41,961 nt of DNA from a virus. The stretch covers positions 1 through 41,961 of the IMG/VR virus record IMGVR_UViG_3300037070_000444; one strand, written 5' to 3'. Below, one piece after another: positions 8,935 to 23,253 of the stretch (position 1 is the stretch's first letter; the number at the start of each line of letters is the position of its first letter). The position numbers and the translations under genes are program-made. Below the pieces are notes generated by a model. The model was not told where the DNA came from, searched no databases, and saw nothing but the letters and a program-made list of their open reading frames with translations.

Positions 8935-9334
8935 CGGCAGGCGGCCCGAACTGCCGAACCTCCACGATCACCGTGGTGGGCGCCTTCTCCGAGTCCTTGG
9001 TCCACGACTCCGGCGCCCGGTTCTCCAGCCAGTACTTCGACGCGGGCAGGTTCCCAGGCTTCGACGCCATGTCGAATACCGCCTTCGCGACCTGAGCGTG
9101 AGCACGCACCGTCGCCACCTCGATCTCGCGCGAGTAGTGCTCGCGGATCTGACCCGGCCGCAGGTCGAGCTCGATGGCGATCGCCTCCACAGTGAGCCCG
9201 AGCGCCGTCATCGCCTCGACCTTGCCAGCCACGAGCTCGTCACGCTTGTGCGGCAGGACGTGACCAGTCAGCGGATCGCGGCCAGCGTCGCCGACTGGCT
9301 CGCCCGTTGGAGGGACGAATCGCTCGGTCGTCAC
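8924..9334 (-). CDS. terS: Terminase small subunit (probable)
   Basis: A 136-residue protein directly upstream of, and overlapping, the large terminase gene. Residues about 35-70 form a helix-turn-helix-like region (KVEAMTALGLTVEAIAIELDLRPGQIREHYSREI), as in phage small terminases that recognise the packaging site. The middle has a segment with AKAVFDMASKPGN, AYW-type KYWLENRAPESWTKD, and the end is a Val/Pro-rich tail. These patterns recur in small terminase or TerS-like proteins of BPP-1-like and related phages. Its start ATG overlaps the sulfatase stop by four bases (ATGA), so the accessory sulfatase gene is embedded in the packaging operon. Assignment rests on place and fold pattern rather than on a diagnostic catalytic motif. 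Confidence 0.75.
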   Translation of the reverse strand: MTTERFVPPTGEPVGDAGRDPLTGHVLPHKRDELVAGKVEAMTALGLTVEAIAIELDLRPGQIREHYSREIEVATVRAHAQVAKAVFDMASKPGNLPASKYWLENRAPESWTKDSEKAPTTVIVEVRQFGPPADAT

Positions 9335-10782: not shown

Positions 10783-10786
10783 CAGA

Positions 10787-11824
10787 TCAGCCACGAACCA
10801 CCTCCGCACTCAGACCAGACCACCGCTCCCACCGCTCCACGATAACCGTCGCATACGCCGGATCGAGCTCCACCAGCCGAGCACGCATCCCGAGCCGGTC
10901 AGCCGCAATCAGCGTCGAACCCGAGCCGCCGAACGGATCTAGCACCGTGTCGCCCGCCCGTGCGTTGTGACGCAGCATGCGCTCGACCAGCGCAACGGGC
11001 TTCATCGTCGGATGATACTCGGAGCGCTTCGGCCGCGGCTCGCGCATCACGGACGGCACAAGTTCCTCGACAACAGCGGCGCCATCGATGATGAGCACAC
11101 GGTCCCCAAGCGTGACCTGCCATCGCCCGTCCTCCATGCGCTGGAACGGTGAGCCCTCGCCGAGATCCATGACCGTCGTCTGCTTGCGCCCGCCATACCA
11201 GCGGTGCCGAGCGCCAGGCTTCCACCCGTACAGGATGGGCTCGTGCTGCCACTGGTAGTCCGAACGACCGAGTACCAGCGCGTCCTTGCGCCAGACGATA
11301 CACCCCGACAGCTTGAATCCCGCGAGTTCGAACGCCACCCGGAACTGCAGCCCACCCGTGTCGGCATGCGCCACGTACACCGCACCGCCAGGCTGCAGCC
11401 ACTGGTGCATCGCGCGGAACGACGCCTCGAGGAACGCACCGAAGTCCACGTTCGCCATCGCGTCGTTCAGGATCGTCCCGGCCTTGCCCGAGTACGCCAC
11501 GTTGTACGGCGGATCGGTCCAGATCATGTGAGCCTGCGCCGAGCCGAGCACCTCCTCGAGCACGAGCGGGTCGGTGGCGTCGCCCACGATCAGCCGGTGA
11601 GGACCGAGCGCCCAGACCTCGCCGACCGCACACCGGACGTGCCCGAGCGGAGGCGCATCGTCCGGATCCCGCTCGTCGGTAGGCTTCGTGAGCGCACCGA
11701 TCTCGTCCAGCGTGAACCCAGCCAGCGACAGGTCGAACCCATCGGTCCGCAGCGCCTGGAGCTCGAGCACGAGCATGTCCATGTTCCAGCCGGCATCGAG
11801 CGCGATCCGATTGTCCGCCAGCAC
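10787..11824 (-). CDS. DNA adenine/cytosine-N4 methyltransferase, C-terminal part of a split ParB-methylase
   Basis: The methylase half of a ParB-domain/methyltransferase gene. It shows the catalytic motif DPPYNVAYSG early in the domain, an internal segment ending PILYGWKPGARHRWY, and near the C-terminus HPTMKP and the SAM-binding VLDPFGGSGSTLIAAD. This order is that of a beta-class N6-adenine or N4-cytosine methyltransferase. Phages use these to modify DNA against restriction or to time replication. The open frame continues upstream of this GTG as LVGLTPAQQRALVLADNR. That is the natural continuation of the ParB domain encoded in the next frame (11590-12078). One base appears to be missing near 11861, so this is probably one gene broken in this sequence. 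Confidence 0.85.
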   Translation of the reverse strand: MLADNRIALDAGWNMDMLVLELQALRTDGFDLSLAGFTLDEIGALTKPTDERDPDDAPPLGHVRCAVGEVWALGPHRLIVGDATDPLVLEEVLGSAQAHMIWTDPPYNVAYSGKAGTILNDAMANVDFGAFLEASFRAMHQWLQPGGAVYVAHADTGGLQFRVAFELAGFKLSGCIVWRKDALVLGRSDYQWQHEPILYGWKPGARHRWYGGRKQTTVMDLGEGSPFQRMEDGRWQVTLGDRVLIIDGAAVVEELVPSVMREPRPKRSEYHPTMKPVALVERMLRHNARAGDTVLDPFGGSGSTLIAADRLGMRARLVELDPAYATVIVERWERWSGLSAEVVRG

Positions 11825-12078: not shown

Positions 12079-12304
12079 CAGCGGGATACATCCTCACCGG
12101 GTACGGCCGCTCGCTGTCGTGACGCCAGCCCGCACACCAGTCGAACTGCCGCACGGTGGGGAAGCCCACCATGACGGGCGGACGCTGACGACACGTCCCA
12201 TCGCCAGGCACTGGCCCCTTCGGATCAGGGTGCTCGCGGTAGTACCCGCACGTCCTGCAGGTCCGCTCGTACGGCAGGGTCATCCCATCGTTGACTTCGC
12301 TCAT
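12065..12304 (-). CDS. Small Cys-rich, zinc-finger-like protein
   Basis: A 79-residue protein with four or more cysteines arranged as CRTCGYY, then DGTCRQRPP and FDWCAGW. The first pair (C-x2-C) and the later cysteines would suit a zinc ribbon, and the tryptophans and tyrosines around them are typical of small phage zinc proteins. I do not recognise a family. Its start overlaps the stop of the HTH gene by four bases (ATGA at 12301-12304). Its end overlaps the ParB gene start by 14 bases, so translation is coupled. Confidence 0.6.
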   Translation of the reverse strand: MSEVNDGMTLPYERTCRTCGYYREHPDPKGPVPGDGTCRQRPPVMVGFPTVRQFDWCAGWRHDSERPYPVRMYPADAYD

Positions 12305-12618
12305 GACCGCTTATCGTAGCCGCGAGCACCGACGTTCGACAACGCCATCCACGCCACCCGAACCCGCGCAAACGCCTCTGGACCATACGCACCGAACGAC
12401 GGATGTTCAGCAGGCGGTCTCGGCCCGCGCTCGTGATCGCCACGCTTATGCGCGCTGTGACCAGTCAGCCGGTGACGACAGACCCAATTCGCGACAGTGT
12501 GCCGCGTCACGCCGTGCTTGCCGCCGATCTGCTCGTAAGTCAGCCCGGCCAGGATGTCCGCGAGCAGGACGTCGATGCCTGGGAATCTGGTCCGGTGACC
12601 GCCGCCTTGGGGTCTCAT
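12301..12618 (-). CDS. Helix-turn-helix DNA-binding protein
   Basis: A 105-residue basic protein. Residues about 18-50 read as a helix-turn-helix: LLADILAGLTYEQIGGKHG, then VTRHTVANWVCRHRL. The rest is charged and rich in His, Gly and Pro. The pattern resembles small GcrA/sigma-region-4-like or resolvase-type HTH proteins found in phage early and middle regions. It follows the candidate origin and small gene at 12615-12836 with a four-base overlap. It may regulate the methyltransferase, sulfatase or packaging genes downstream, but no binding site is proven. Confidence 0.6.
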   Translation of the reverse strand: MRPQGGGHRTRFPGIDVLLADILAGLTYEQIGGKHGVTRHTVANWVCRHRLTGHSAHKRGDHERGPRPPAEHPSFGAYGPEAFARVRVAWMALSNVGARGYDKRS

Positions 12619-12854: not shown

Positions 12855-13103
12855 GTTACCCGTTACCCGTACTGTTACCCGTACCCGTCGCCGTAAGTCT
12901 TTGATTTTTAACAACGTTACCCCGTTACCCGTGTTTCCCCACCTCCGCAACACTTCCCACATGCATGCGCGTGATGTGTGTGTGCGTGTACCCGTAATAC
13001 CCACGGATATAGGGGTAACATAGGTAACACGGGTAATTAGTTTTAGAATTCAATGTCATAGCTGTTACCCGAAGGCTCGCCCGTTACCTGTATTTCGGGT
13101 AAC
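12855..13103. repeat. Iteron-like cluster of GTTACCC repeats (candidate replication origin)
   Basis: Within 249 bases there are eight exact copies of GTTACCC. Six read forward at 12855, 12862, 12874, 12916, 12924 and 13064; two read reversed at 13013 and 13097. One-mismatch relatives occur at 13022, 13031 and 13083, and shortened GTACCCG units lie at 12881 and 12988. A T/A-rich stretch (TTGATTTTTAAC, 12901-12912) sits among them in otherwise GC-rich DNA. The cluster lies at the end of the primase gene and in the noncoding gap after it. This is the usual place for an origin bound by an initiator. The repeat is seen directly; the origin role is inference. Confidence 0.75.
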
Positions 13104-14917
13104 ACGTCCGGTCTGACCCAGGTTTTTTGTAGGATCCCCGCGGAATTGCGGAGTGGCTTGTTCTTCCACTTGAGCAGCCGCAGGATTCGCCCGGCCCGTT
13201 TCTGGACGAGTTGATCCTGCCGGCCGGGCTCGATCTTGAGCGCCTCTTCGAGGACCTCGTGGAGCAGGATGCGGTCGCGCGTGGTGCTCGCCAGGAAGCC
13301 GGAGATGATCGGTTCCCAGGCATCGGTCTCGCGGCGGGCGTCGGTTTCAGCGGCCTGCAGGTCGGCCGGGACGTCCCACCATGCCTCATGGCGTTTGTAG
13401 CGCGCCACGGCCTCGGCAAAGAGGATGTCGCGGTGCTCGCGGATCCAGTCGAGATCGGTGGCGAGACAGATGACCGGCCAGAATCGGCGAGCGCCGGTGT
13501 CGTCCTTCTGCCAGTCGTCGCGGTTTGTGGTGCCGGCCAGGACTGTGCGCCGCGGATGGTCTGCGGCATGGCGGTCGTAGGGTTTTCGGTAGCGATCGAC
13601 GCGGCAGGAGATCACGCCCTTGATGCGTTCGACCTCGGCGCGCGAGAAGGAATGCATTTCGGCGATTTCGACCAGCATGTGGCCGGTCATGATCGAATAG
13701 AAATCCTTGTGCAGGACCGACTCGTGGCACTCGACGTACCACTTCCCGCCGATGATCCCGAGTGCTGTGGATTTGAGCTTGCCCTGCTCACCCTCGAGCA
13801 CCGGGACCGTGTCGACCTTGGCGCCAGGTTCGAACACACGAGCGACCATCGACACCAGCCAACAGCGGCCCATCGCCTCGGTGAAGGCGTCGCGTTTGGA
13901 GCCGAAACCGACCGGAAACAGATCCTGCAGGCGATCGACACCGTCCCACTCGATCGACTCCAACCAGGCCCTGCACTCGTTCCGGATGTCGTGGTGGGCG
14001 GCCATCTGGGCCGCGTTGTCACATGTCTTGAGGGATATCTTGGTCAGGCCGATGTGGCGTTGCAGGTAGAGCTGCAGCTTGATCGAATCGACGTCCGACC
14101 ACTCGCGTTGCGAGCCCTGCCAGTCGGTCTGGACGGCGTCGAGGAACTCGTCGAACCAGACGTGCCGCGCGAGCTCCGGATCCTTCTCGATGGTGCGGAT
14201 GGCGTTGTCGAGGTTATCGTGCGGGGCGCCGTTGCCGTTGAGCGAAAGCTGCAGCGCGTCCCAAGCAGCGAAGCCTGCCGCGGCCGGTGGTTCCGGTTTC
14301 GGTTTCGAGACGGGGCGCATGCGCGGCCGGGACCATGACGAGAAGGCGTCCCAATCGAACCCGGCGTGTGTGGCGTTCCAGCCGTCCGAGTTGCCGTCTG
14401 GGTCGATGATCTTTAGGGAGTGACAGATCGGCTCGACGATCGTCGCCAGGTCGAACATCGTCTGGAGCCCTTCGACCCCGGCGTTCGGCCAGAGCACGAC
14501 GGTACGGCCGGCGAGCGGACGCCAGTCAGCCGCATGGGCGGCGAGGATTCCGCCCGGCCATGTGACGCACACGTACTTGCGGTCGCAGAACATCTGGGCG
14601 ACGGTGGCAGCCTCCTCGCCGTCACAGATCAGGACGGGTCGGCGTGGAGCAGCGGCGAGCCGATCGAGCCCGTAGAGCGGACGCGGATCCGGCCACATGC
14701 GTTCGATCCAGCCGTTATGGGACCACACCCACGGGATGAATACAGGTTCGGCGCCGGGCCGGTAATACTTGGCGACGTGCCCTAACAGCTCACCGCCAGC
14801 CCCACGATAAGGCCATGATTCGGTGGGTTTTCCGAACGACACGTCGCGCATGGACGGCGCCGGAGAGTCGGCCGGTACCGGCACGATGACGACCGGGGCG
14901 AGCGTGCCAGAGTTCAT
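13043..14917 (-). CDS. VirE-family primase/helicase (replication protein)
   Basis: A 624-residue replication protein. The N-terminal 180 residues resemble a TOPRIM-like primase domain (PVLICDGEEAATVAQM, then TWPGGILAAHAADW and TVVLWPNAG). The C-terminal half is a virulence-associated E (VirE) type P-loop ATPase. Its features are VPVLEGEQGKLKST at about 373-384 (a Walker A variant), VEIAEM followed by RAEVERIKGVIS, and RRTVLAGTTNRDDWQKDDTGARRFWP. This family primes and unwinds phage DNA with a host polymerase, which fits the lack of a phage polymerase here. The ATG at 14917 follows GAGGGGAACC. A candidate promoter and a 17-bp operator lie just upstream. The iteron-like cluster begins inside its 3' end. 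Confidence 0.85.
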   Translation of the reverse strand: MNSGTLAPVVIVPVPADSPAPSMRDVSFGKPTESWPYRGAGGELLGHVAKYYRPGAEPVFIPWVWSHNGWIERMWPDPRPLYGLDRLAAAPRRPVLICDGEEAATVAQMFCDRKYVCVTWPGGILAAHAADWRPLAGRTVVLWPNAGVEGLQTMFDLATIVEPICHSLKIIDPDGNSDGWNATHAGFDWDAFSSWSRPRMRPVSKPKPEPPAAAGFAAWDALQLSLNGNGAPHDNLDNAIRTIEKDPELARHVWFDEFLDAVQTDWQGSQREWSDVDSIKLQLYLQRHIGLTKISLKTCDNAAQMAAHHDIRNECRAWLESIEWDGVDRLQDLFPVGFGSKRDAFTEAMGRCWLVSMVARVFEPGAKVDTVPVLEGEQGKLKSTALGIIGGKWYVECHESVLHKDFYSIMTGHMLVEIAEMHSFSRAEVERIKGVISCRVDRYRKPYDRHAADHPRRTVLAGTTNRDDWQKDDTGARRFWPVICLATDLDWIREHRDILFAEAVARYKRHEAWWDVPADLQAAETDARRETDAWEPIISGFLASTTRDRILLHEVLEEALKIEPGRQDQLVQKRAGRILRLLKWKNKPLRNSAGILQKTWVRPDVLPEIQVTGEPSGNSYDIEF

Positions 14918-14942: not shown

Positions 14943-14959
14943 GACAGACCGTCAGAGCG
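14943..14959. repeat. Leader repeat, copy 2
   Basis: GACAGACCGTCAGAGCG differs from 7464-7479 by a single inserted A. It lies in the gap before the primase gene. The short string CGCTCTGA occurs a second time on the leftward strand just before the primase ribosome site. Confidence 0.35.
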
Positions 14960-14984
14960 TAGCGAGGTGTTGAGTAAATGGCAA
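14956..14984 (-). promoter_or_regulatory. Candidate leftward promoter of the primase gene
   Basis: On the leftward strand TTGCCA (complement of 14979-14984) is followed after 17 bases by TACGCT (complement of 14956-14961), and the primase ATG is about 40 bases further on. The -35 box lies inside the 17-bp operator motif. The -10 box is a weak match to consensus. Confidence 0.4.
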
Positions 14985-14985
14985 C
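14969..14985 (+). promoter_or_regulatory. Operator-like motif, copy 1 (GTTGAGTAAATGGCAAC)
   Basis: One of four copies of GTTGAG-N6-GCAAC. It is extended here to a GTGTTG/CAACAC inverted repeat (14967-14987). It sits between the VRR-NUC and primase genes and overlaps a candidate promoter. The likely ligand is the Cro-like protein encoded at 17443-17670; this is inferred. Confidence 0.6.
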
Positions 14986-14986
14986 A

Positions 14987-15367
14987 CTAGATTAGCCGCT
15001 CCACATCATCCATCGCCTGCTCCACGTCATGCGCGACGACAGCGATGCCGCCGGCCTCGGTAACCCGCTGGCGGAATATGACCTGCTCAGGCGATTCGCG
15101 GTCCTTGCCCGCCTTGACCTCAACCGCGAGGAACCGGCCCGTGCTGGTCCAGCCGATCACGTCCGAGCCCCCGACCACGAGGCCAGCGTGCAGCGGACGC
15201 GCGTTGCGGATCACCACGTCGCCAGGCAGCACATGCACTGTCGTGGCGACGTTGAAGCGGGTCGATTTACCGACCCACCCAACGCCCACGTTGTGGCGGA
15301 ATGCCCGATGCCCTGCTTGTGAGAGGGCGAGAAGGATTCGGGCGGTCAGGTCTCGTGACTGGCTCAC
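14987..15367 (-). CDS. VRR-NUC domain nuclease
   Basis: A 126-residue protein of the VRR-NUC branch of the PD-(D/E)xK nucleases. The core reads VVGGSDVIGW (Asp 69), then FLAVEVKAGKDR (Glu 83, Lys 85), SPEQVIF (Gln 95) and RVTEAGGIAVV, which is the family's full catalytic order. Stand-alone phage VRR-NUC proteins of this size are common beside primase and SNF2/DEAD helicase genes and may act as Holliday-junction or flap nucleases. The stop codon directly follows the operator motif. The start overlaps the upstream gene by four bases (ATGA). The helicase gene two places upstream is a typical partner. Confidence 0.88.
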   Translation of the reverse strand: MSQSRDLTARILLALSQAGHRAFRHNVGVGWVGKSTRFNVATTVHVLPGDVVIRNARPLHAGLVVGGSDVIGWTSTGRFLAVEVKAGKDRESPEQVIFRQRVTEAGGIAVVAHDVEQAMDDVERLI

Positions 15368-15573
15368 TCGCCGGCCGGATCGACCTCAACCGCCGACAGA
15401 ATCGTAACGCCAGCGTTCATCAGACCAATGATTTCCTTGGGTTTCGCGATCTCCGTCGAGAACAGAGAACGCGCCACACAAGCCACTGCACCGGACTGTG
15501 AGGGTGCGTCGACCAGCCAGACACGGCCGTCGTTGCCGGTTTCGGTTACTTTGTAGATACGCGTGATCGACAT
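15364..15573 (-). CDS. Hypothetical small beta-rich protein
   Basis: A 69-residue protein beginning MSITRIYKVTETG. It has a first strand pair ending RVWLVDAPSQSGAVACVA, a Ser/Phe helix and a last strand (VTILSAVEVDPAGE). This alternating arrangement is like small phage proteins encoded between helicase and VRR-NUC genes, but I cannot name a family. It follows the helicase gene by 15 bases and has a good ribosome site (AAGGAGAC) before its ATG. It overlaps the VRR-NUC start. Confidence 0.6.
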   Translation of the reverse strand: MSITRIYKVTETGNDGRVWLVDAPSQSGAVACVARSLFSTEIAKPKEIIGLMNAGVTILSAVEVDPAGE

Positions 15574-15588
15574 TTGTCGTCTCCTTGG

Positions 15589-16968
15589 TTATGCGCGCCT
15601 GCGGCGCCCGTTAAAAACAGCCTTAGCCCATCCAATCGGATTCTTGTACCGGCGGCCCTTTGCCAGCGCGACCAGATCCTCGAGCGTCTGCGCCTTGTTC
15701 GTCTCGCTGCGCTCCTTCCAGTACCGAGAGCGCCGAACCGTGTCCGGATCCATCTCCACGAGCTCGCCAGCGCGCTCCTCGACCTCGCGGCCATGAGGGA
15801 TCCAGACGTGCCCGCAGTCGCAGACGCGAACGTAGGCGCTCATCACGCGGTAGCAGGCCGGACACTGGCGAACCGCGACCACGACAGCCGCGGCGTTCTT
15901 CTTGCGCTTGGCGCCATCGAGCGACCAGGTGCGAGGATCGTCAGGGAGCCCGTGCCGGAGCGCGTTGCCAGCGTGGTCGAGGATGATGCACTCGCCGCCG
16001 TCCGGTTTCGGCCGGAGCCCGCGGCCCCACTGCTGCAGCGCGAGCCCGAGCGACTGCGTCGGCCGCAGGTTGATGACGCACTCGATGCCAGGCACGTCCA
16101 CACCCTCGCCGAACAGGTCCACGTTGCAGAGCACCTTGATGTCGCCAGCCGCGAACGACGCCAGCGCACGGTCGCGGAACGTGGTCTCGGAATCTCCATC
16201 GACGTGAACCGTCGGCACGCCCACGTGCAGGAACTGGTCGCGGACGTGGAGCGAGTGCGCGATCGACGCACAGAACACGATCGCCCGCTTACCAGGCGCC
16301 AGCTTCAGGTAGTGCATGACCGCGTCGCCTGTTATCGACGGCGTATCCATCGCATCGACCAGAGCCTCGGCTGCGAAGTCTCCAGCGCGCGAGCGGACTG
16401 CAGTCAGATCCGGAACGGACGGCGCGAACAGCCGGTACGGTGACAGGTAGCCGTCGCGGATCAGATCCGCGGTCGACGGTCCCTGCACCATGTCCTCGAA
16501 CCATGCGCCGAGCCCGGTGCCGTCGAGGCGCTCAGGCGTTGCCGTGAGCCCGACGTGATACGCGTCCGAGTGGTCGCCGATGATGCGCGCCCAGGTCGCT
16601 GCAGCGGTGTGGTGCGCCTCGTCGGTGACGATGAAGTTCGGCCGCGCCAGCTTGTGCCGGCGTTTGTCGAGCGTCTGGACCATGCAGATCTGGACCAGCG
16701 CGCCAGGCGATGGCCGGAACCCTGCAGCGACGATGCCGTGCGGGATCCCGACCTGGAAGAACGTCCGAGCCGTCTGCATGACGAGCTCGCGCCGGTGAAC
16801 GATGAACCACGCGCGCCGGCCACGTTCAGCCGCGGTCCCGAGCATGGACGCGGTGAGCGCCGTTTTACCCGAGCCGGTCGGTGACACGATCAGGCAGGAG
16901 CGGTGCGTCCGGAGTGAGGCGCGTGTCCGGTCGATCAGGTCGGTTTGGTAGGGCCGGAGCTCGATCAT
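15589..16968 (-). CDS. DEAD/DEAH-box (SF2) helicase with C-terminal zinc ribbon
   Basis: A 459-residue superfamily 2 helicase. The motifs appear in order: RPYQ (5-8), Walker A SPTGSGKT (29-36), DEAH (116-119), LTATP (141-145), an AIVFCASIAHS motif IV region, FGEGVDVPG, and QQWGRGLRP as motif VI. A Cys cluster follows (CPACYR, then CDCGHVW), likely a zinc ribbon, with a basic tail. This is the usual phage helicase that partners VRR-NUC and primase in replication. The start at 16968 is preferred because it overlaps the stop of the upstream gene by four bases (ATGA). An in-frame start eight codons earlier at 16992 is possible. Confidence 0.88.
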   Translation of the reverse strand: MIELRPYQTDLIDRTRASLRTHRSCLIVSPTGSGKTALTASMLGTAAERGRRAWFIVHRRELVMQTARTFFQVGIPHGIVAAGFRPSPGALVQICMVQTLDKRRHKLARPNFIVTDEAHHTAAATWARIIGDHSDAYHVGLTATPERLDGTGLGAWFEDMVQGPSTADLIRDGYLSPYRLFAPSVPDLTAVRSRAGDFAAEALVDAMDTPSITGDAVMHYLKLAPGKRAIVFCASIAHSLHVRDQFLHVGVPTVHVDGDSETTFRDRALASFAAGDIKVLCNVDLFGEGVDVPGIECVINLRPTQSLGLALQQWGRGLRPKPDGGECIILDHAGNALRHGLPDDPRTWSLDGAKRKKNAAAVVVAVRQCPACYRVMSAYVRVCDCGHVWIPHGREVEERAGELVEMDPDTVRRSRYWKERSETNKAQTLEDLVALAKGRRYKNPIGWAKAVFNGRRRRA

Positions 16969-17144
16969 GCGACGCGCACGCAGCGGACCCACCGCCGGAG
17001 TGGTCGGCGACGGTCTGCCGGATAAACCCGGTACACGCGGCCGGTCTCCGCGGTGTCCTCACGAGCAGCGAGCAGCACCACGCGGTACGTGACCCACACG
17101 AACTGCCGGAGATCGCCCACGCGCATGCCGTCGAAGGCGGTCAC
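16965..17144 (-). CDS. Small basic hypothetical protein
   Basis: A 59-residue protein read from GTG 17144, which overlaps the stop of the upstream gene (GTGA). An ATG six codons on, at 17126, is an alternative. The sequence (RVGDLRQFVWVTYRVVLLAARE, then Arg-rich RRRPLRRWVRC) is very basic with one beta-like core and suits a small nucleic-acid-binding protein, but no family is recognised. The stop overlaps the helicase start by four bases. The open frame extends upstream to 17285 only as a shadow of the neighbouring gene. Confidence 0.5.
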   Translation of the reverse strand: MTAFDGMRVGDLRQFVWVTYRVVLLAAREDTAETGRVYRVYPADRRRPLRRWVRCVRVA

Positions 17145-17446
17145 TCGGAGAGTTCCCGAACACGGCGCCGGAGCGCGTAAATCTGATTCTTCAGCCGCTT
17201 CCGCTCGGCCTTGAGTTCTTCGACGTCGAGCTTCGCGTTCATGATCACGATCTCGGCCCGCTCCATCTCGTGACGGTGAACCCACCCGATCCTCACCCGC
17301 TGCGTTGCGAGCGCATCGTTAAACTCGTCGTCGCGACGGAGACGCTGCTCCACCACGTCGGCGAACCGAACCCACTCGCCAGCGTATGCCGGCCGGATCT
17401 CCAGCCCGAATTCGGACACGACGATTTCGTAGGTCTGGATGCTCAC
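17141..17446 (-). CDS. Coiled-coil hypothetical protein
   Basis: A 101-residue protein with a beta-like first third (QTYEIVVSEFGLEIRPAYAGEW). Its C-terminal half is a strongly heptad-like helix: IVIMNAKLDVEELKAERKRL, then KNQIYALRRRVREL. It may dimerise. No family is recognised. It overlaps the Cro-like gene by four bases and the following small gene by four, so the three are one translational unit. Confidence 0.6.
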   Translation of the reverse strand: MSIQTYEIVVSEFGLEIRPAYAGEWVRFADVVEQRLRRDDEFNDALATQRVRIGWVHRHEMERAEIVIMNAKLDVEELKAERKRLKNQIYALRRRVRELSE

Positions 17447-17670
17447 TTCGCGATCAGATCCTCAGCCTTCAAATCCAGCCCGCGCTTCTTAGCCTCGCGC
17501 AGGATGTCGTACTGCCGAGCGGACGGAACCCGACCAGCGGTGCCGCCTTTATCGGCGGGCGAGTTCCAGCGCGAGACGGCGCCAGGCGAGATATCGAGCA
17601 CCCGAGCGGTCGCGCGCACCCCACCGAATGCCTTTATGACGCGATCGGCCGGGGTTTTTTTCTGTGCCAT
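17443..17670 (-). CDS. Cro/YdaS-like helix-turn-helix regulator
   Basis: A 75-residue repressor-like protein. Residues 8-33 form the helix-turn-helix (ADRVIKAFGGVRATARVLD, then ISPGAVSRW), followed by a basic turn with PADKGGTAGRVP and a helical ending (YDILREAKKRGLDLKAEDLI). This is the pattern of Cro/YdaS-type phage proteins. ATG 17670 is chosen since the sequence before it is promoter, though the frame stays open to 17862. It is the first gene of the leftward block and faces the rightward early operon across a 130-bp control region. It is the natural candidate to bind GTTGAG-N6-GCAAC. Confidence 0.8.
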   Translation of the reverse strand: MAQKKTPADRVIKAFGGVRATARVLDISPGAVSRWNSPADKGGTAGRVPSARQYDILREAKKRGLDLKAEDLIAK

Positions 17671-17695
17671 GAGGCGTTCCAATGAAGGTAACGGC

Positions 17696-17712
17696 GTTGA
17701 GCATACAGCAAC
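17696..17712 (+). promoter_or_regulatory. Operator-like motif, copy 2 (GTTGAGCATACAGCAAC)
   Basis: A copy of the 17-bp motif GTTGAG-N6-GCAAC. It contains the -10 box of the leftward promoter (AGCATA, the complement of TATGCT). A protein bound here should block the Cro-like gene's own transcription. Confidence 0.65.
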
Positions 17713-17729
17713 GGACGAAGTGTTGACAA
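17700..17729 (-). promoter_or_regulatory. Candidate leftward promoter of the Cro-like gene
   Basis: TTGTCA (complement of 17724-17729) and TATGCT (complement of 17700-17705) are 18 bases apart on the leftward strand, 30 bases before the Cro-like ATG. Both boxes are close to the sigma-70 consensus. The -10 lies within operator copy 2. Confidence 0.55.
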
Positions 17730-17751
17730 CGGTCATCGATGTTGAGACGAT
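17723..17751 (+). promoter_or_regulatory. Candidate rightward early promoter
   Basis: A perfect TTGACA (17723-17728) lies 17 bases before GACGAT (17746-17751), a weak -10. The rightward operon starts at 17803. The -35 box shares bases with the leftward promoter and with the small palindrome GTTGACAAC (17722-17730). The -10 lies in operator copy 3. Confidence 0.5.
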
Positions 17752-17757
17752 CGCAAC
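17741..17757 (+). promoter_or_regulatory. Operator-like motif, copy 3 (GTTGAGACGATCGCAAC)
   Basis: A further copy of GTTGAG-N6-GCAAC, over the -10 region of the rightward early promoter and 46 bases before the first rightward start codon. Confidence 0.65.
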
Positions 17758-17802
17758 ACCACAACAGGCGACCATCCCGGTCGCGAACTTGAGGACGAGA
17801 GA

Positions 17803-18078
17803 ATGAACGTAGAACAGATCACGATGACCCTGAGCGAAGAAATGGTACTCAAGGCGGTTCAATACTGGATGAACCGGCGCCTGATGCGCCAGCCGACCCG
17901 CCTCCTCGACATGAGGAAAAAGTACCAGTCCGACACCGAATACCAGATCACCATCGAGCGCGCGAGCGCCACGCCGGAGCCGAAGCGGATCGAGTGCAAA
18001 GAGTGCTGCCTCACCTTCACCGAGGGCGACTCGACCGGCTGCACGAGCCCCGGCTGCCCGATGCCGGCCACGGTCTAG
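17803..18078 (+). CDS. Hypothetical early protein with C-terminal Cys cluster
   Basis: A 91-residue protein, first in the rightward early operon. Residues 1-35 form a helix (EEMVLKAVQYWMNRRLMRQP), the middle is charged, and the end is Cys-rich: ECKECCLTF, then GCTSPGCPMP, which could bind zinc. No family is recognised. It begins about 50 bases after the early promoter and ends five bases before the next gene. Confidence 0.6.
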   Translation: MNVEQITMTLSEEMVLKAVQYWMNRRLMRQPTRLLDMRKKYQSDTEYQITIERASATPEPKRIECKECCLTFTEGDSTGCTSPGCPMPATV

Positions 18079-18083
18079 CCGCG

Positions 18084-18368
18084 ATGGCGCAACTGCACCC
18101 CAACGACCTAATCGCAGGCCCGCGAACGGTGACGATCGTCTCCGTTGGCGCGGCCAGGGACGGCGGACTGGTAGTCAGCCTCGATGATGGCTCGACGTAT
18201 CGCCCGAGCCTGCAGAACCAAAGCCGCATCGCCAGAGCATTCGGCCATGACGGCAGCGCATGGACAGGCAAGCGGATCCTGCTGTCCCGCTGCGAGTTCA
18301 TGTACGCATCCAAACCAATGACCGGCATACACGCGCGGCCGGTCGGGGAGCCAGCACCATGCAAGTAA
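18084..18368 (+). CDS. Hypothetical early protein, relative of the 19422 gene
   Basis: A 94-residue protein from ATG 18084, just after the stop of the preceding gene; the frame upstream is a shadow. It reads HPNDLIAGPRTVTIVSV, then STYRPSLQNQSRIARAFG, HDGSAWTGKRILLSRC and GIHARPVG. The same landmarks occur in the protein at 19422-20036 (DDLLVGPMDITVTKV, DGAAWVGRSMRLYC). The two look like diverged copies on either side of the RecE-like gene. The small, beta-rich fold could be an OB-type single-strand DNA-binding protein, but that is a guess. It overlaps the exonuclease gene by ten bases. Confidence 0.65.
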   Translation: MAQLHPNDLIAGPRTVTIVSVGAARDGGLVVSLDDGSTYRPSLQNQSRIARAFGHDGSAWTGKRILLSRCEFMYASKPMTGIHARPVGEPAPCK

Positions 18369-19183
18369 TCGAATCCCTCGCTCTCGAGGCGTACCACAAC
18401 CACCCAGCAGTCAGTAACACGCTGCTCGGCTACCTGAAGAAATCCCCCGCGCACGCGAAGGCGTTCATGGAAGGCGAGCGCTGGACCGAGACGCCAGCGA
18501 TGAAGGAAGGCACGGCGCTGCACTGCGCGCTGCTCGAGCCGGAGCGGTTCGCGATGGTTTATCGGCCGTTCGACACCGACCGCCGAACGAACGCCGGCAA
18601 GGCCGAGTACGCCGAGCTGCTCGCGACCGGCAAGATCCCTCTGAAGTCCGAAGCGATCGACCGCGTCTGGAAGATGGCCGGGAGCCTGCGCCGGATCCCG
18701 GTGCTCGAAGAACTGCTCCGGATCCCGCACCTCAAGGAAAATTCGGTGTTCTGGGTGGACCCGGTCAGCGGACTGGAGTGCCGGTGCCGGCCGGACATTT
18801 TCTGGCCGAGCCTTGGGATCCTGGTGGACATCAAGAAGTGCCGCGACGCGAGCCCGCGAGGATTCGCCAGAGCGCTCGATCACTACGACTACCACCGCCA
18901 GGACGCGCACTACCGGGCCGGCACCGGATCGACGCGGTTCATCTTCGCAGCGGTCGAGCCAGAGGCGCCATTCGCAGCGAAGCTGCACGAGATAGATGCG
19001 GCCTCGCTCGAGAACGGCCGCGCAGAGCGCGCAGAGTTGCTCAAGCGGTACGCAGAGTGTGCCGAGAGTGGAGTCTGGCCAGGTTACGGTGACGACATCA
19101 ACGAAGTGTCGCTGCCCGCCTACAGGTTCGGTGGCGATGACGCGGATGACATCGCGTTTACAGATGAGACGGAGGAAGCATGA
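18359..19183 (+). CDS. RecE-like exonuclease (PD-(D/E)xK)
   Basis: A 274-residue exonuclease that likely chews 5' ends of double-stranded DNA to make 3' tails for recombination. Diagnostic pieces are MKEGTALHCALLEPERF (48-64), SGLECRCRPDIFW (Asp 146), ILVDIKKC (Asp 157, Lys 159) and DHYDYHRQDAHYRAG, which match the RecE/DUF3799 family. A RecT-type annealing partner is expected nearby. None is obvious, but the neighbours at 18084 and 19422 are candidates for such a role. ATG 18359 is preferred over earlier in-frame ATGs because those fall inside the previous gene. Confidence 0.85.
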   Translation: MQVIESLALEAYHNHPAVSNTLLGYLKKSPAHAKAFMEGERWTETPAMKEGTALHCALLEPERFAMVYRPFDTDRRTNAGKAEYAELLATGKIPLKSEAIDRVWKMAGSLRRIPVLEELLRIPHLKENSVFWVDPVSGLECRCRPDIFWPSLGILVDIKKCRDASPRGFARALDHYDYHRQDAHYRAGTGSTRFIFAAVEPEAPFAAKLHEIDAASLENGRAERAELLKRYAECAESGVWPGYGDDINEVSLPAYRFGGDDADDIAFTDETEEA

Positions 19184-19425
19184 CACCCGAGATCCACGCC
19201 GCCCTCACGGCGCAATTTTCAAGGTCACCGCCGACGACCGGCGCGAACGGCCACGCCTACTGGATGGGTCTGGTCGGCCACAAACCACCGGCCACATCGA
19301 AAGGCACGCCGCGAGCCATCGCCTACGAAGCCGGTAAGGCCGCCCGAGCCACCGACATCTTCGCCGAGATGAACTCGGACGAGATGTGGGAACACTTCCA
19401 CCAATCAGGAGAGGTACGACCATGA
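19180..19425 (+). CDS. Hypothetical small protein after RecE-like gene
   Basis: An 81-residue protein, polar, with a basic middle (KPPATSKGTPRAIAYEAG) and an acidic C-terminal helix (IFAEMNSDEMWEHFHQS). Its ATG overlaps the RecE-like stop by four bases. The pattern resembles small phage proteins near recombination genes, but no family is recognised. Confidence 0.55.
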   Translation: MTPEIHAALTAQFSRSPPTTGANGHAYWMGLVGHKPPATSKGTPRAIAYEAGKAARATDIFAEMNSDEMWEHFHQSGEVRP

Positions 19426-20036
19426 ACGACGCCACCAACCTACGGGACACAGTGATCCCGAAGTCAGACCAACTGAACGCCGACGACCTGCTCGTCGGTC
19501 CGATGGATATTACCGTCACCAAGGTCCGTCGCGGGTCCGGCAAGGAGCAGCCGGTAGACGTCCACTGGAAGGGAGGCGAAGGGCGCCCGTTCAAGCCATG
19601 CAAGACCATGCGCCGCGTGCTGATAGCCGCCTGGACCGATGACGGTGCCGCGTGGGTAGGCCGCTCGATGCGCCTGTACTGCGACCCGGACGTTACGTTC
19701 GGAGACGTCAGGACCGGAGGAATCCGCATCTCGCACATGACGGATATCCAGAGCGACCCGCTGATTCTGGTGTTGACCGCAACGCGCGGCCGGAAAAAGG
19801 AATACCGGATTCAGCGCCTCGTGCTCGACGAACCGTGGGCAGACGCGTGGGGCGACACGATCGCAGGCGCGGCCACGGTCGATGAACTGCGTACCAGCCT
19901 GACCGAAGCGCTGGCCGAGGCGAAGCGGCGCAAGGATGCGCCTGCAGCGGCCAGGCTGCGATCGATCGCGGACACCAGGAAGGCCGAGATCGATCCGCCG
20001 CTGGAGAATCCGCCGATCGCGGATGAGCAGTCATGA
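19422..20036 (+). CDS. Early protein, possible single-strand DNA-binding/recombination partner
   Basis: A 204-residue protein from ATG 19422, eight bases after AGGAGAGG. Residues 15-125 are beta-rich (DDLLVGPMDITVTKVRR, GRPFKPCKTMRRVLIAAW, DGAAWVGRSMRLYC, FGDVRTGGIRISHM). The last 60 are a charged helix (SLTEALAEAKRRKDAPAAA). The first half matches the 18084-18368 protein in the order of its landmarks. Placement right after a RecE-like exonuclease is where RecT/Erf/SSB-type proteins usually sit, but no RecT or Erf motif was seen. Function is inferred from place and fold pattern only. Confidence 0.6.
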   Translation: MNDATNLRDTVIPKSDQLNADDLLVGPMDITVTKVRRGSGKEQPVDVHWKGGEGRPFKPCKTMRRVLIAAWTDDGAAWVGRSMRLYCDPDVTFGDVRTGGIRISHMTDIQSDPLILVLTATRGRKKEYRIQRLVLDEPWADAWGDTIAGAATVDELRTSLTEALAEAKRRKDAPAAARLRSIADTRKAEIDPPLENPPIADEQS

Positions 20037-20353
20037 TCAAGCCGCGCAAGGGGGACAGGGTGCTGATCGAGGCGGTGGTGGAAGGCGTGTCCAACGATGA
20101 TCTTATGTCATTGAAGATTGCCAATCGAACGACGCAGTTCATATCTGCGGAGTCGATTCACTCCATCCTCCCTCCCGACTGGAGCACGGTAGAGCGGGGG
20201 ACGCGGGTGGAGGTGAGCGACACGGATTCTGATTGGTTCGGCGCGATGTTCGTGTGTCATGTTCCTAACGTGATGCTCCCATTCAGCGCGATTCTGGACA
20301 CGGAAGTCCGCGTCACTGATTGGCAACGCTGCCGCCTCGCGCAGGAGGAATGA
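20033..20353 (+). CDS. Hypothetical early beta-rich protein
   Basis: A 106-residue protein that starts four bases before the end of the preceding gene. The sequence alternates strands and turns (GDRVLIEAVVEGVSND, then RGTRVEVSDTDSDWFGAMFV), and resembles a small barrel domain such as a KOW/SH3-type fold. Function is unknown. Its stop overlaps the next gene's start. Confidence 0.55.
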   Translation: MIKPRKGDRVLIEAVVEGVSNDDLMSLKIANRTTQFISAESIHSILPPDWSTVERGTRVEVSDTDSDWFGAMFVCHVPNVMLPFSAILDTEVRVTDWQRCRLAQEE

Positions 20354-20571
20354 TGGCTACCAACGACGGCGGGGAAATAAACGCGCTGCTGGACCTGTTG
20401 GAGGTAGAGAACACCCTCAACAGCCACGGTAATCCGTTTCGATGCCAGGATATTGAGTGCTGCCGATACGGGCAGAAACTCTGGGCCGGTGACTGCCAGT
20501 GCTATGACATGCAGGCGCGAGAACATCGCGAGAAGGTTCGCGCCGCAATCCGCGCTCGGGAGGCATCGTGA
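20353..20571 (+). CDS. Hypothetical Cys-rich early protein
   Basis: A 72-residue protein with five cysteines in a short span (FRCQDIECCRYG, then GDCQCYDM) and a helical ending rich in Arg and Glu. The arrangement suggests a metal-binding knuckle, not a known family. AGGAGG at 20343-20348 sits four bases before two tandem ATGs (20350 and 20353). The start is uncertain by one codon. Confidence 0.55.
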   Translation: MATNDGGEINALLDLLEVENTLNSHGNPFRCQDIECCRYGQKLWAGDCQCYDMQAREHREKVRAAIRAREAS

Positions 20572-20792
20572 TGGCTATGACGGATGACGAGATTCTGGCG
20601 CTGTGGCGCGCACCATACGACGACGGTGGCTCACTCAACGTATGCACCTTCGCCCGCGCCATCGCCGACCGTGCAGCAGAGGATGAGCGGGAGGCGTGTG
20701 CGAGGGTGGCTGCCACATACGGAACTGGAACATACGTAGGCGGCCATATCGCCGAGTTGATCCGCGCTCGTGGCACTGAGGGTCCAGCATGA
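20568..20792 (+). CDS. Hypothetical small helical early protein
   Basis: A 74-residue, mostly helical protein (DDEILALWRAPY, then CTFARAIADRAAEDEREACAR and HIAELIRARGTEG). It follows the previous gene with a four-base overlap. Its last codons (ARGTEG) are the first copy of an 18-bp sequence that is repeated after the next gene, which marks this gene's end as a recombination junction. The pattern is typical of small phage proteins of unknown function. Confidence 0.55.
   Translation: MMAMTDDEILALWRAPYDDGGSLNVCTFARAIADRAAEDEREACARVAATYGTGTYVGGHIAELIRARGTEGPA
20765..20782 (+). repeat. 18-bp direct repeat, left copy
   Basis: CGCTCGTGGCACTGAGGG lies at the end of the 74-residue gene and six bases before the PAPS-reductase-like ATG. 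An identical copy lies just after that gene (21588-21605). The pair brackets the gene exactly. Confidence 0.85.
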
Positions 20793-21586
20793 AGCACATC
20801 ATCAGTCTCGGCGCAGGAGTGCAGTCAAGCACAATGGCCCTCATGGCCGCACGCGGCGAGATCGGCCCGATGCCTGACTGCGCGATCTTCGCGGATACGC
20901 AGTGGGAGCCGAAGCGCGTGTACGAGTGGCTGGACTGGCTGGAGAAGCAACTGCCGTTTCCGGTGTACCGGATCAGTGTCGGCAACATCCGCGAGAGCAT
21001 CCTTGGAAATGCGGGTGACTCCGATGCGCGGGTCGCGAGCGTGCCGTACTTCGTCGCTGGCGGCGGACTGCTGATGCGCCAATGCACTAGTGAGTACAAG
21101 ATTCAGCCAATTCTTAGGAAGATTCGCGAACTGATCGGGCTCAAGCCGCGCCAGCGAGGGCCGGCGACCCCTGTTGTGTCGCAGTGGATCGGTATCTCGT
21201 TCGATGAAATGCAACGCATGAAGGCGAGCCGGGTCCGCTACATCGAGAACATATTCCCCCTGATCGACGCGCGCATGAGCCGCCACGACTGCCTGCGCTG
21301 GATGGAGCAACGGCAATATCCGATGCCGGAGAAATCCTCCTGCGTCGGCTGTCCATACCACGACAACGACCACTGGCGCGACATGCGCGACAACGATCCA
21401 GAGTCGTGGGCTGACGCGGTCGCGGTGGACGCTGCACTCCGGGCGACCGGGCCGCGCAGGGGAAAAAAGGAACTTGAGTACACACACCGCGATTTGGTCC
21501 CACTCTCGGAGGTCGATCTAACGACCCCGGCCGATCACGGGCAACTATCGTTTTTGGATGAGTGCGACGGGATGTGCGGGGTATGA
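20789..21586 (+). CDS. PAPS-reductase-like PP-loop protein
   Basis: A 265-residue protein of the phage branch of the phosphoadenosine-phosphosulfate reductase/adenine nucleotide alpha-hydrolase superfamily. It opens with a PP-loop variant (SLGAGVQSSTMALMA, residues 6-20), then CAIFADTQWEP and VYEWLDWLEKQLPFPVYRI. Near residues 184-190 it has the Cys pair SCVGCPYH, followed by DNDHWRDM. Members act in sulfate assimilation or, in phages, possibly in base or tRNA modification, so the substrate is uncertain. The gene is bracketed by an 18-bp direct repeat made from the end of its left neighbour, a sign that it was inserted as a cargo unit. The only other sulfur-related gene is the arylsulfatase. 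Confidence 0.8.
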   Translation: MKHIISLGAGVQSSTMALMAARGEIGPMPDCAIFADTQWEPKRVYEWLDWLEKQLPFPVYRISVGNIRESILGNAGDSDARVASVPYFVAGGGLLMRQCTSEYKIQPILRKIRELIGLKPRQRGPATPVVSQWIGISFDEMQRMKASRVRYIENIFPLIDARMSRHDCLRWMEQRQYPMPEKSSCVGCPYHDNDHWRDMRDNDPESWADAVAVDAALRATGPRRGKKELEYTHRDLVPLSEVDLTTPADHGQLSFLDECDGMCGV

Positions 21587-21587
21587 C

Positions 21588-21605
21588 CGCTCGTGGCACT
21601 GAGGG
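21588..21605 (+). repeat. 18-bp direct repeat, right copy
   Basis: Identical to 20765-20782 and starting two bases after the PAPS-reductase-like stop codon. Bases 20783-21605, 823 in all, therefore form one gene-plus-repeat unit. Confidence 0.85.
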
Positions 21606-21614
21606 AGGTGGGGA

Positions 21615-22058
21615 GTGAGTGACCCGATTTGTATGCGATGCAAGTTCCCGATGCCGGGCCGTGATGGATTCACGGTGCACGAATCAATGTGGGACTGCTT
21701 TGAACTTGTCACCGCCGACAACGAGCGGCTGAATCAGTGGTGCGAGAAATGGTCGTTTATGTTCCAAGGCGCACAGAAAGAAATCGAAGCCCTCCGCACG
21801 AAGCTGGAGCAGGTGGAGGGCGAACGGGATGCGCTGAAGGTGCAGGCTGAACAGTTTGCCGAGTTCGGGCTGGCAACTGTCGATGTGGCTCGCGAGCAAC
21901 TTGCAGACCTCACCGCCCAGCTTGAGCGGGCGAGGATGCCGCGACTGATACGCGCAGCCCTGCGGCGGTTGATCAATGATCCAGTGGTACAAACAGGTGC
22001 CAAGTTCCTCTCGGCTGACCTCACCGACTGGCTCGACCAGCAGGAGAAGCAGAAGTGA
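21615..22058 (+). CDS. Coiled-coil early protein with N-terminal Cys pair
   Basis: A 147-residue protein from GTG 21615 (GGGAGGTGGGGA before it). The first 30 residues carry a CMRCKFPMPGRDG zinc-knuckle-like motif. The middle is a long coiled coil (KEIEALRTKLEQVEGERDAL, then LADLTAQLERARM), and the end is basic then acidic (RRLINDPVVQTGAKFL). No family is recognised. It begins just after the right copy of the direct repeat. Confidence 0.6.
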   Translation: MSDPICMRCKFPMPGRDGFTVHESMWDCFELVTADNERLNQWCEKWSFMFQGAQKEIEALRTKLEQVEGERDALKVQAEQFAEFGLATVDVAREQLADLTAQLERARMPRLIRAALRRLINDPVVQTGAKFLSADLTDWLDQQEKQK

Positions 22059-22330
22059 TACCAGGATTCGATCAGACCGATCCGCCAGAAACGCTATGGC
22101 TGAAGTGGGGCGACGATCGCGCGTGGTACGGCGTCTGGTGGGACCACAAGCCGGAGCAGGAAGTCACCGAATACCGCCGCGCCGATCTAGCTTACCTACC
22201 GGATGAACTGGTGGAGGACTTACGCTATTACCTCGCGTACTACGAGGTAGGTGAAGACGATCCACGCGGGATGACCCTGCTCCACGCCATCCTCGCCGCA
22301 GTGCGCCCCACAGACGGAGAGAAGCCGTGA
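22055..22330 (+). CDS. Hypothetical acidic early protein
   Basis: A 91-residue, Trp- and Asp-rich protein (LWLKWGDDRAWYGVWWDHKP, then DELVEDLRYYLAYYEVGEDD). It begins with GTG overlapping the previous stop (GTGA). Such small, very acidic early proteins are common in phages and sometimes mimic DNA or inhibit host enzymes. That is a possibility only. Confidence 0.55.
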   Translation: MIPGFDQTDPPETLWLKWGDDRAWYGVWWDHKPEQEVTEYRRADLAYLPDELVEDLRYYLAYYEVGEDDPRGMTLLHAILAAVRPTDGEKP

Positions 22331-22572
22331 CGGATGGCGAGGTATGGCTCGAAGTCGAATTCTCCGGCGCACGCCGGATGCTCTGGGCTGACATCCTGCT
22401 CGACGGTGCCGAACCGTTCGCGTTCGACTTTTGGCGAGCGGCAAACGTGACGGCATTGAAAGTCCGCACCGACGGGACTATTGGCGGCAGAGTTCGCGTA
22501 GGCCCGGGTCCGCGCCGTCTAGTCATCGACCCGGTGTGGATCGAGAGGGTGATTATCGCGGGCGACTTATGA
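22327..22572 (+). CDS. Hypothetical small beta protein
   Basis: An 81-residue protein beginning with GTG, four bases before the preceding gene ends. The pattern alternates strands: EVWLEVEFSGARRMLWADILLDG and VRTDGTIGGRVRVG. Function unknown; it is part of the densely packed early operon. Confidence 0.5.
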   Translation: MTDGEVWLEVEFSGARRMLWADILLDGAEPFAFDFWRAANVTALKVRTDGTIGGRVRVGPGPRRLVIDPVWIERVIIAGDL

Positions 22573-22745
22573 CCAACACAACCCGCAACGCCCGCCGAGC
22601 CAGGCTGAAGCAACAGCACGTCGAGCGGATCGTCGAGCTCGAGCGCGAGAACGGTCTGCTGCGCGGACAGGTCGAGACGCTGGCCCGGACGTTGCGTGAG
22701 ATTCGTGCGAGGCAGGGTGTTGCGTTTCACTCAACGCACGGGTAA
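22569..22745 (+). CDS. Small basic coiled-coil protein
   Basis: A 58-residue protein beginning with ATG 22569, overlapping the previous stop. It is a single basic helix with heptads (RARLKQQHVERIVELERENG, then LRGQVETLARTLREI), probably a dimeric coiled coil. The gene's 3' end contains the fourth operator-like motif and a candidate promoter. Confidence 0.55.
   Translation: MTNTTRNARRARLKQQHVERIVELERENGLLRGQVETLARTLREIRARQGVAFHSTHG
22719..22735 (-). promoter_or_regulatory. Operator-like motif, copy 4 (reverse orientation)
   Basis: GTTGCGTTTCACTCAAC is the reverse complement of GTTGAG-TGAAAC-GCAAC and matches the other three copies. It lies at the end of the 58-residue gene. TTGCGT within it could be a -35 with TAATCT (22743-22748) 17 bases on, giving a promoter for the gene at 22777. 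Confidence 0.55.
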
Positions 22746-22776
22746 TCTCTCCGCTACACCTGCGGAGCCCGACAGC

Positions 22777-22980
22777 ATGATCAAGTGGTGGCTATACGAC
22801 GAGGACGCCGACATCGAGACAGAGATCGAGATCGACTACGACGAGACAGACGCCACGAACATCATCGCAGTTGATCCGATGGACCAGGACGTGACCCATC
22901 TGATCCCAGACAGTGACTGGCCGCGAATCATCAAGGAACTCATGGACAGTTACACAAGCCACGACGGGCCGCCGCTGTGA
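22777..22980 (+). CDS. Highly acidic small early protein
   Basis: A 67-residue protein, over a quarter Asp/Glu (YDEDADIETEIEIDYDETD, then VDPMDQDVTHLIPDSDW). Such proteins are frequent in phage early regions and may mimic DNA, but no family is recognised. A short hairpin (22749-22767, CTCCGC/GCGGAG) and a candidate promoter with operator copy 4 precede it, so it may have a start of transcription separate from the rest of the operon. Confidence 0.55.
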   Translation: MIKWWLYDEDADIETEIEIDYDETDATNIIAVDPMDQDVTHLIPDSDWPRIIKELMDSYTSHDGPPL

Positions 22981-23123
22981 GCCCGCGAGCGACCGCCGTA
23001 TTCGCGATCCTTGTCATGCTGCTATGCATCTTCGGCGACGCCATCGCCGACGCATGGTTCCCGGTGCCGGACATGTCGCCGGTGTGTGTTCAGTTTGGAG
23101 TTTGCAGGAATCTCGATGAGTGA
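22977..23123 (+). CDS. Small protein with N-terminal hydrophobic segment
   Basis: A 48-residue protein read from GTG 22977 (overlapping the previous stop, GTGA) to TGA 23121-23123. It has a hydrophobic stretch (AVFAILVMLLCIFGDAIADA) that could be a signal peptide or a membrane anchor, then a short polar tail with two cysteines. A secreted or membrane-bound small protein is likely; its role is unknown. It overlaps the next gene by eight bases. Confidence 0.5.
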   Translation: MSPRATAVFAILVMLLCIFGDAIADAWFPVPDMSPVCVQFGVCRNLDE

Positions 23124-23253
23124 CTACTACGAACAGCGCGCCCACCACCGAGCGCCCATGTACCGCTACCAGCTAATCGGATTCAGGATGCTCGCGATCA
23201 TCGTCGGGCTTGCGGTGGTGTGGCGGGTTATCGAGATCGCGTTGGCGGTGTGA
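23116..23253 (+). CDS. Small membrane protein at end of early operon
   Basis: A 45-residue protein from ATG 23116 with a polar start (SDYYEQRAHHRAPMYRYQL) and a single hydrophobic span (FRMLAIIVGLAVVWRVIEIALAV). The length and topology suit a small holin or another phage membrane peptide. The upstream open frame is a shadow. It is the last gene of the rightward block and its stop lies in a hairpin shared with the facing gene. Confidence 0.5.
   Translation: MSDYYEQRAHHRAPMYRYQLIGFRMLAIIVGLAVVWRVIEIALAV

Follow-up and report, generated by a model that had tools for sequence, protein, structure and literature searches.

Four operator-like 17-bp dyads and a Cro-type repressor gene in a podovirus genome with no detectable cI or integrase

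The window analysed here, i.e. the whole stretch of 41,961 nucleotides of the virus record IMGVR_UViG_3300037070_000444, has a GC content of 64% and a rough noncoding content of 1.2%. Its first and last 129 bases (1-129 and 41833-41961) agree apart from mismatches in the first three bases, and this 126-bp overlap indicates that assembly closed the genome into a complete circle; the genes at its two ends are neighbours in the related contig L011. Tail tubular and connector proteins of T7/podovirus type are encoded. Nearly all genes are directed leftward, with a rightward block from 17803 to 23253, and the first leftward gene codes for a Cro-like protein of 75 residues. Neither an Rfam search of the window nor a megablast search against phage records gave a match.

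Several other genes of this genome deserve mention. A sulfatase gene (9331-10809, minus strand; PF00884, E 1.5e-41) is flanked by the genes of the DNA methyltransferase and the terminase small subunit; relatives of it are rare, occurring in 20 of the roughly 50,700 phage records. The rightward early operon of the same genome encodes a PAPS-reductase-like protein (20789-21586, plus strand; phrog_424, 1e-49). Downstream of the primase gene, a 105-aa HTH_23/sigma-region-4-like protein (12301-12618, minus strand) is a candidate second regulator. The features of the region considered below are as follows:

13043-14917, minus strand: primase/helicase gene with a VapE-like domain, downstream of copy 1
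14956-14984, minus strand: putative promoter toward the primase gene, TTGCCA-17-TACGCT, -35 box inside copy 1, weak -10 box
14969-14985, plus strand: putative operator copy 1, GTTGAGTAAATGGCAAC, in the 69-bp gap between the VRR-NUC and primase/VapE-helicase genes; matrix score 23.5
14987-15367, minus strand: VRR-NUC nuclease gene, upstream of copy 1
15589-16992, minus strand: DEAD/ResIII helicase gene of the leftward early operon
17443-17670, minus strand: gene of the Cro-like repressor, 75 aa, P22_Cro family, recognition helix SPGAVSRW (profile and AlphaFold/PDB comparison)
17696-17712, plus strand: putative operator copy 2, GTTGAGCATACAGCAAC, covering the -10 box of the leftward promoter; exact motif and matrix
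17700-17729, minus strand: leftward promoter (cro, helicase, VRR-NUC), TTGTCA-18-TATGCT, 9/12 consensus
17723-17751, plus strand: putative rightward promoter, TTGACA-17-GACGAT, perfect -35 box, weak -10 box; predicted by reading the sequence
17741-17757, plus strand: putative operator copy 3, GTTGAGACGATCGCAAC, covering the putative rightward -10 box; score 24.0, the best of the genome
17803-18078, plus strand: 91-aa ORF, first gene of the rightward operon, no known family
18260-19183, plus strand: exonuclease VIII-like (DUF3799) gene of the rightward operon
22719-22735, minus strand: putative operator copy 4, GTTGAGTGAAACGCAAC, at the 3' end of ORF 22569-22745; score 15.0
22720-22748, plus strand: putative internal rightward promoter, TTGCGT-17-TAATCT, weak, 3/6 in the -10 box
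22777-22980, plus strand: 67-aa ORF downstream of copy 4, no family

The initial annotation described four copies of the motif GTTGAG-N6-GCAAC, and all four are exact matches at the positions given above. As to placement, copy 1 separates the VRR-NUC and primase genes, and copies 2 and 3 share the 132-bp divergent gap upstream of cro. Copy 1 carries the full 21-bp dyad GTGTTG-N9-CAACAC, and the inner part of the sites is consistently asymmetric (GTTGAG/GCAAC). In dinucleotide shuffles, the control proposed at the outset, 0.01 copies were expected against the 4 seen. Matches with at most two mismatches numbered 15 against a background of 11.4, so the motif has no halo of near-copies; an additional GTTG-N9-CAAC at 6607 is coding and lacks the inner bases. 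When all gapped 6+5 motifs were considered, third-order Markov genomes contained on average 2.3 four-copy dyadic motifs. As the motif was picked after looking, its recurrence alone is weak evidence, and as sole proof it was set aside once the post-hoc choice had been corrected for. If the motif is defined from the two switch copies only, two more exact copies are found elsewhere, compared with about 0.01 expected.

Paired exact motifs occurred in three further matches of a viral collection besides the same virus; two of these were tandem repeats of clearly coding nature, the third was an array of near-identical repeats, and all were discarded. Among the listed matches to a looser paired pattern, only the same virus had a cro-like ORF.

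The protein encoded beside copies 2 and 3 had been called Cro/YdaS-like, and the Cro half of this description holds: P22_Cro (Pfam PF14549) scores 39.6 bits, above the gathering cut-off of 30.2. YdaS of Rac and CP-933P is likewise an HTH regulator in the Cro position (PMC9986795), but the YdaS_toxin model reaches only 20.9 bits against a cut-off of 30. The AlphaFold model (pLDDT 89.8, five helices) best matches the Cro proteins of Xfaso1 (Z 8.3), P22 (6.7) and N15 (6.6) in the PDB, at 31-35% identity, and has their small all-helical HTH fold. The structure of the N15 Cro-operator complex is available (6on0). A dimer of the window's protein would probably bind the four putative operators.

The copies were originally said to overlap a candidate -35 or -10 box in each case. 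This is best seen at copy 2, which contains the -10 box TATGCT of the only match that a consensus promoter scan returned in the divergent gap; the other three copies have weaker boxes, and the rightward TTGACA-17-GACGAT was not reported by the scan. Copy 4 occupies the final codons of an ORF of 58 aa, and the next ORF starts 41 bp on.

Comparison with related phages, also proposed in the initial annotation, revealed the same 17-bp dyad on the flank of their cro genes. Annotated phages with a related protein are Limnohabitans phage DC33, ctEw122, ctQRb9 and Cobetia phage Carin1. In all four, cro heads a leftward block and diverges from a rightward exonuclease/RecT block, and the divergent gaps carry GTTG/GGTG-N9-CAAC/CACC dyads close to both ends. 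The GenBank taxonomy of DC33 (PQ492659.1) is Inoviridae, yet its 39-kb genome has the tailed-podovirus layout of ctEw122 and ctQRb9.

A scan for relatives added 80 loci. The spectrum of generic palindromes by spacing gave a modest signal only, at the odd spacings 15, 17 and 19, and an arm-specific test was therefore used, in which all 4-mer inverted repeats at all spacings were counted in the 350 bp that surround the start of cro, across 48 dereplicated loci and with the window excluded. The four most enriched dyads were AGTG-23, GTGT-21, TGTT-19 and GTTG-17 (the last 10 against 0.94 expected); being nested, they are parts of one 17-23 bp operator, AGTGTTG-N9-CAACACT. The signal persisted under strict dereplication to 34 loci (TGTT-19, 9 against 0.42; GTTG-17, 7 against 0.75). 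More distant relatives with the recognition helix HRTRVS[SN]W have GTAG-N9-CTAC, also at 17 bp, which indicates that the letters of the operator vary with the protein while the spacing is constant. A GTTG-N9-CAAC dyad beside the more distant Cro of L143 was set aside, as recurrence of its arms was not established. At the level of sequence, the window's sites thus form one class with those of its relatives.

A position matrix was trained on the switch sites of other phages, with the window excluded; the training sites were chosen with a pattern inspired by the window. The matrix ranked the window's four sites 1-4 in 42 kb, with scores of 24.0, 23.5, 15.0 and 13.7, the next match scoring 10.6. 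None of 150 Markov nulls reached 23.5, and the nulls averaged 0.59 matches scoring at least 13.7; copies 2 and 4 accordingly depend on the exact motif, and copy 2 also on its position. Of the four top sites of Carin1, two belong to the switch and the remaining two are in intergenic gaps elsewhere.

The occurrence of distal operator-like copies, defined as sites scoring at least 14.5 beyond 330 bp from cro, goes with that of the Cro gene. The cro-bearing loci, 518 kb in all, contained 65 such sites against 5 in shuffles, about 13-fold, whereas 305 kb of primase relatives (n=30, most without detectable cro) contained 2, the same number as in shuffles. One lineage departs from this picture: the L153-L181 group (helix NPSSVVRW, many contigs) has strong switch operators at about -110 and -28 from cro and, unlike most other cro lineages, no distal sites.

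The junction of the VRR-NUC and primase genes carries a site in all four close cro-bearing genomes (the window, L011, L146/L226 and L182/L227). At the VRR-NUC end it is found at 3463 in L011, 5547 in L226, 3127 in L227 and 1879 in L010, a contig cut before cro; L012 has a site near the corresponding junction. Four cro-less primase relatives with 6 kb of upstream sequence (L232, L233, L235 and L236) have no such site. Copy 1 starts at the VRR-NUC stop codon in the window, whereas the site of the relatives overlaps the last VRR-NUC codons, and this difference means that coding conservation does not explain the junction site. In the relatives the TTGC arm serves as the -35 box of a candidate promoter, with a TAATAT-like -10 box at 17-18 bp (TTGCGG-17/18-TAATAT in L010, L011 and L146; TAGAAT in L227), stronger than that of the window. 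Among the 180 orientations of 90 distal sites, 25 have a -10 box 16-18 bp beyond the TTG arm, compared with 2.7% for random GTTG. Within the rightward operon of DC33 and ctQRb9, a homologous gene is preceded by a site, a loose parallel to copy 4; that of DC33 is not among the top-scoring sites of its genome.

In the relatives, the leader from the distal operator-promoter to the next gene contains a conserved element of about 95 nt with the pattern GGGGCTTG...GCCTCAGTCCTGGCGCG...CGCGCC...CCAGG, followed by the start codon (L010:1915-2010, L011:3500-3595, L012:1680-1775, L146 about 13010-13110, L227 about 3163-3260). It folds into hairpins with a few compensatory changes, had no match in Rfam and was not seen in the window. 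It may represent a structured 5' leader RNA.

The closed window genome gave no match to HTH_3, to S24 or to the tyrosine integrase model. As the S24 model missed every CI here, those of the relatives included, the absence of cI depends on HTH_3, which in the same search was positive in the records of L146, L182, L011, L195 and L213; the integrase model was positive in those of L182, L195 and L213. The nearest relatives L146, L182 and L011 have a CI-like HTH_3 gene divergent from cro, at the place where the window has its 91-aa ORF (the same position by sequence inspection in L146 and L182). With neither a detectable cI divergent from cro nor a tyrosine integrase, an absence that the initial annotation had not mentioned, the window does not fit a lysis/lysogeny switch of lambda type. 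Neither the HTH_3 nor the integrase model matches in DC33, ctEw122, ctQRb9, Carin1 or zth2-2. Altogether, six genomes devoid of cI and integrase keep Cro (Carin1 by tblastn only) and 5/6 of them keep this operator class. That this class is retained where no prophage repressor is encoded suggests Cro as the protein that uses it.

Based on these observations, we suggest, with a probability of about 0.78, that the Cro-type protein of 75 residues, encoded by the phage itself, uses the four sites as its operators and would thereby shut the early and replication genes. The Cro dimer would contact the GTTG half-sites of the 17-bp dyad, whose full form of 21-23 bp is (A)GTGTTG-N9-CAACAC(T). Of the two early promoters, placed back to back, copies 2 and 3 would cover the -10 regions; the predicted -35 boxes overlap and share the palindrome GTTGACAAC. 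Rising Cro would then shut both its own leftward operon, with the helicase and VRR-NUC genes, and the rightward recombination operon. Each of copies 1 and 4 would provide an internal promoter with its -35 half, upstream of the primase gene and of the last rightward genes, respectively, and these promoters would be repressed together with the early blocks. Repression rather than activation is the probable mode of action, and Cro would serve in the lytic transition from early to late genes. The earlier proposal of one regulator for regulatory, early and replication genes is thus supported by the dyad flanking cro, the distal copies that track cro, and the conserved junction site with its promoter. 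Counting against this reading are the location of copy 4 within a short ORF, the promoter boxes at copies 1, 3 and 4, which are weak for a genome of 64% GC, the window-inspired choice of the matrix training sites, and the NPSSVVRW lineage with its switch sites only. Copy 4 is the least supported, because conservation of its position in close relatives is not demonstrated, and a chance origin of this copy alone is possible.

The proposed arrangement resembles several known systems. Like the window, P22, N15 and Xfaso1 have a small all-alpha HTH repressor encoded beside divergent promoters and palindromic operators over promoter boxes; however, the window is devoid of cI and has extra operators 2.7 and 5 kb away. 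The operators of N15 and phiKO2 measure 16 bp (PMC4997575), those of the window 17 bp with GTTG half-sites. Lambda OR and OL, used by CI and Cro, share with the window divergent early promoters, 17-bp dyads and a late-acting repressor, Cro. On the other hand, lambda has three plus three operators, whereas the window has two in the switch, with the promoters back to back in one gap, and a replication-gene operator inside the leftward operon, and it has no cI.

The phiKO2 prophage repressor binds three OR and two OL sites, the latter before the replication gene repA, while phiKO2 Cro occupies OR3 alone (PMC4997575). In N15/phiKO2, as in the window, operators of the switch class thus also lie at a distance, before a replication gene, but there they belong to the prophage repressor (CB in N15), which the window does not have. 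Since phiKO2 Cro is limited to OR3, distal sites in cI-bearing relatives could belong to CI, and it is this precedent that makes the cI-less window informative. With the CI-like genes of the nearest relatives, it also lends some weight to the idea that the four sites are CI operators inherited from a temperate ancestor, now bound by the CI of a host prophage or by nothing, with Cro using only one or two of them. We consider this unlikely: none of the HTH_3, S24 and tyrosine-integrase models matches the closed genome, the best two of its sites rank with the strongest, which is unexpected for decaying sites, and other cI-less phages retain theirs (in Carin1, all four are intergenic).

It is very unlikely that Cro acts at these sites as an activator or roadblock instead of occluding promoters. 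Copies 1 and 4 do overlap weak -35 boxes within operons, and sites in transcribed regions could stop elongation in the manner of the stoperators of Cluster A mycobacteriophages, which are also repressor sites spread along a genome (PMC9283540). However, stoperators are asymmetric and numerous, and through them the immunity repressor affects elongation, whereas the window has four dyads, with an asymmetric inner part, at putative promoters; such sites are palindromic, often with a -10 box at 16-18 bp. The -10 boxes are themselves covered at copies 2 and 3, and an activator in that position should get in the way of RNA polymerase.

Binding by another protein is highly improbable, even though the HTH_23 protein and an ORF with a ParB-like domain are both encoded in the window genome and a host regulator might be considered as well; operators are present where the cro gene is, and their letters differ according to the recognition helix of Cro. 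Among the checked relatives that keep the operators, none has a homologue of the HTH_23 protein, which, not being conserved, was set aside. Chance recurrence selected after the fact, which the Markov genomes made worth considering, is barely credible and is rejected for copies 1-3 by the external matrix, the conserved position of copy 1 and the cro-dependent distal density, all independent of the four-copy selection.

Returning to the Cro repressor, we somewhat favour a wider reading, in which a genome-wide regulon served by Cro only exists in podoviruses without cI and integrase, i.e. in the window, DC33, ctEw122, ctQRb9, Carin1 and possibly zth2-2, a possible member only since its switch sites are imperfect. 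Freed from a role in the choice between lysis and lysogeny, Cro would time lytic growth by repression through operators at both early promoters and at internal ones, e.g. those of replication genes. An incomplete literature search found no paper describing a GTTG-N9-CAAC operator or a Cro-only regulon. The 17-bp GTTG-N9-CAAC dyad is offered as a predicted operator code for the widespread, little studied P22_Cro subfamily, and the operators of its class are indicated to reach past the switch to replication genes. Pairs of phages with and without cI offer a natural setting in which to ask directly how Cro acts where lysogeny is not an option.
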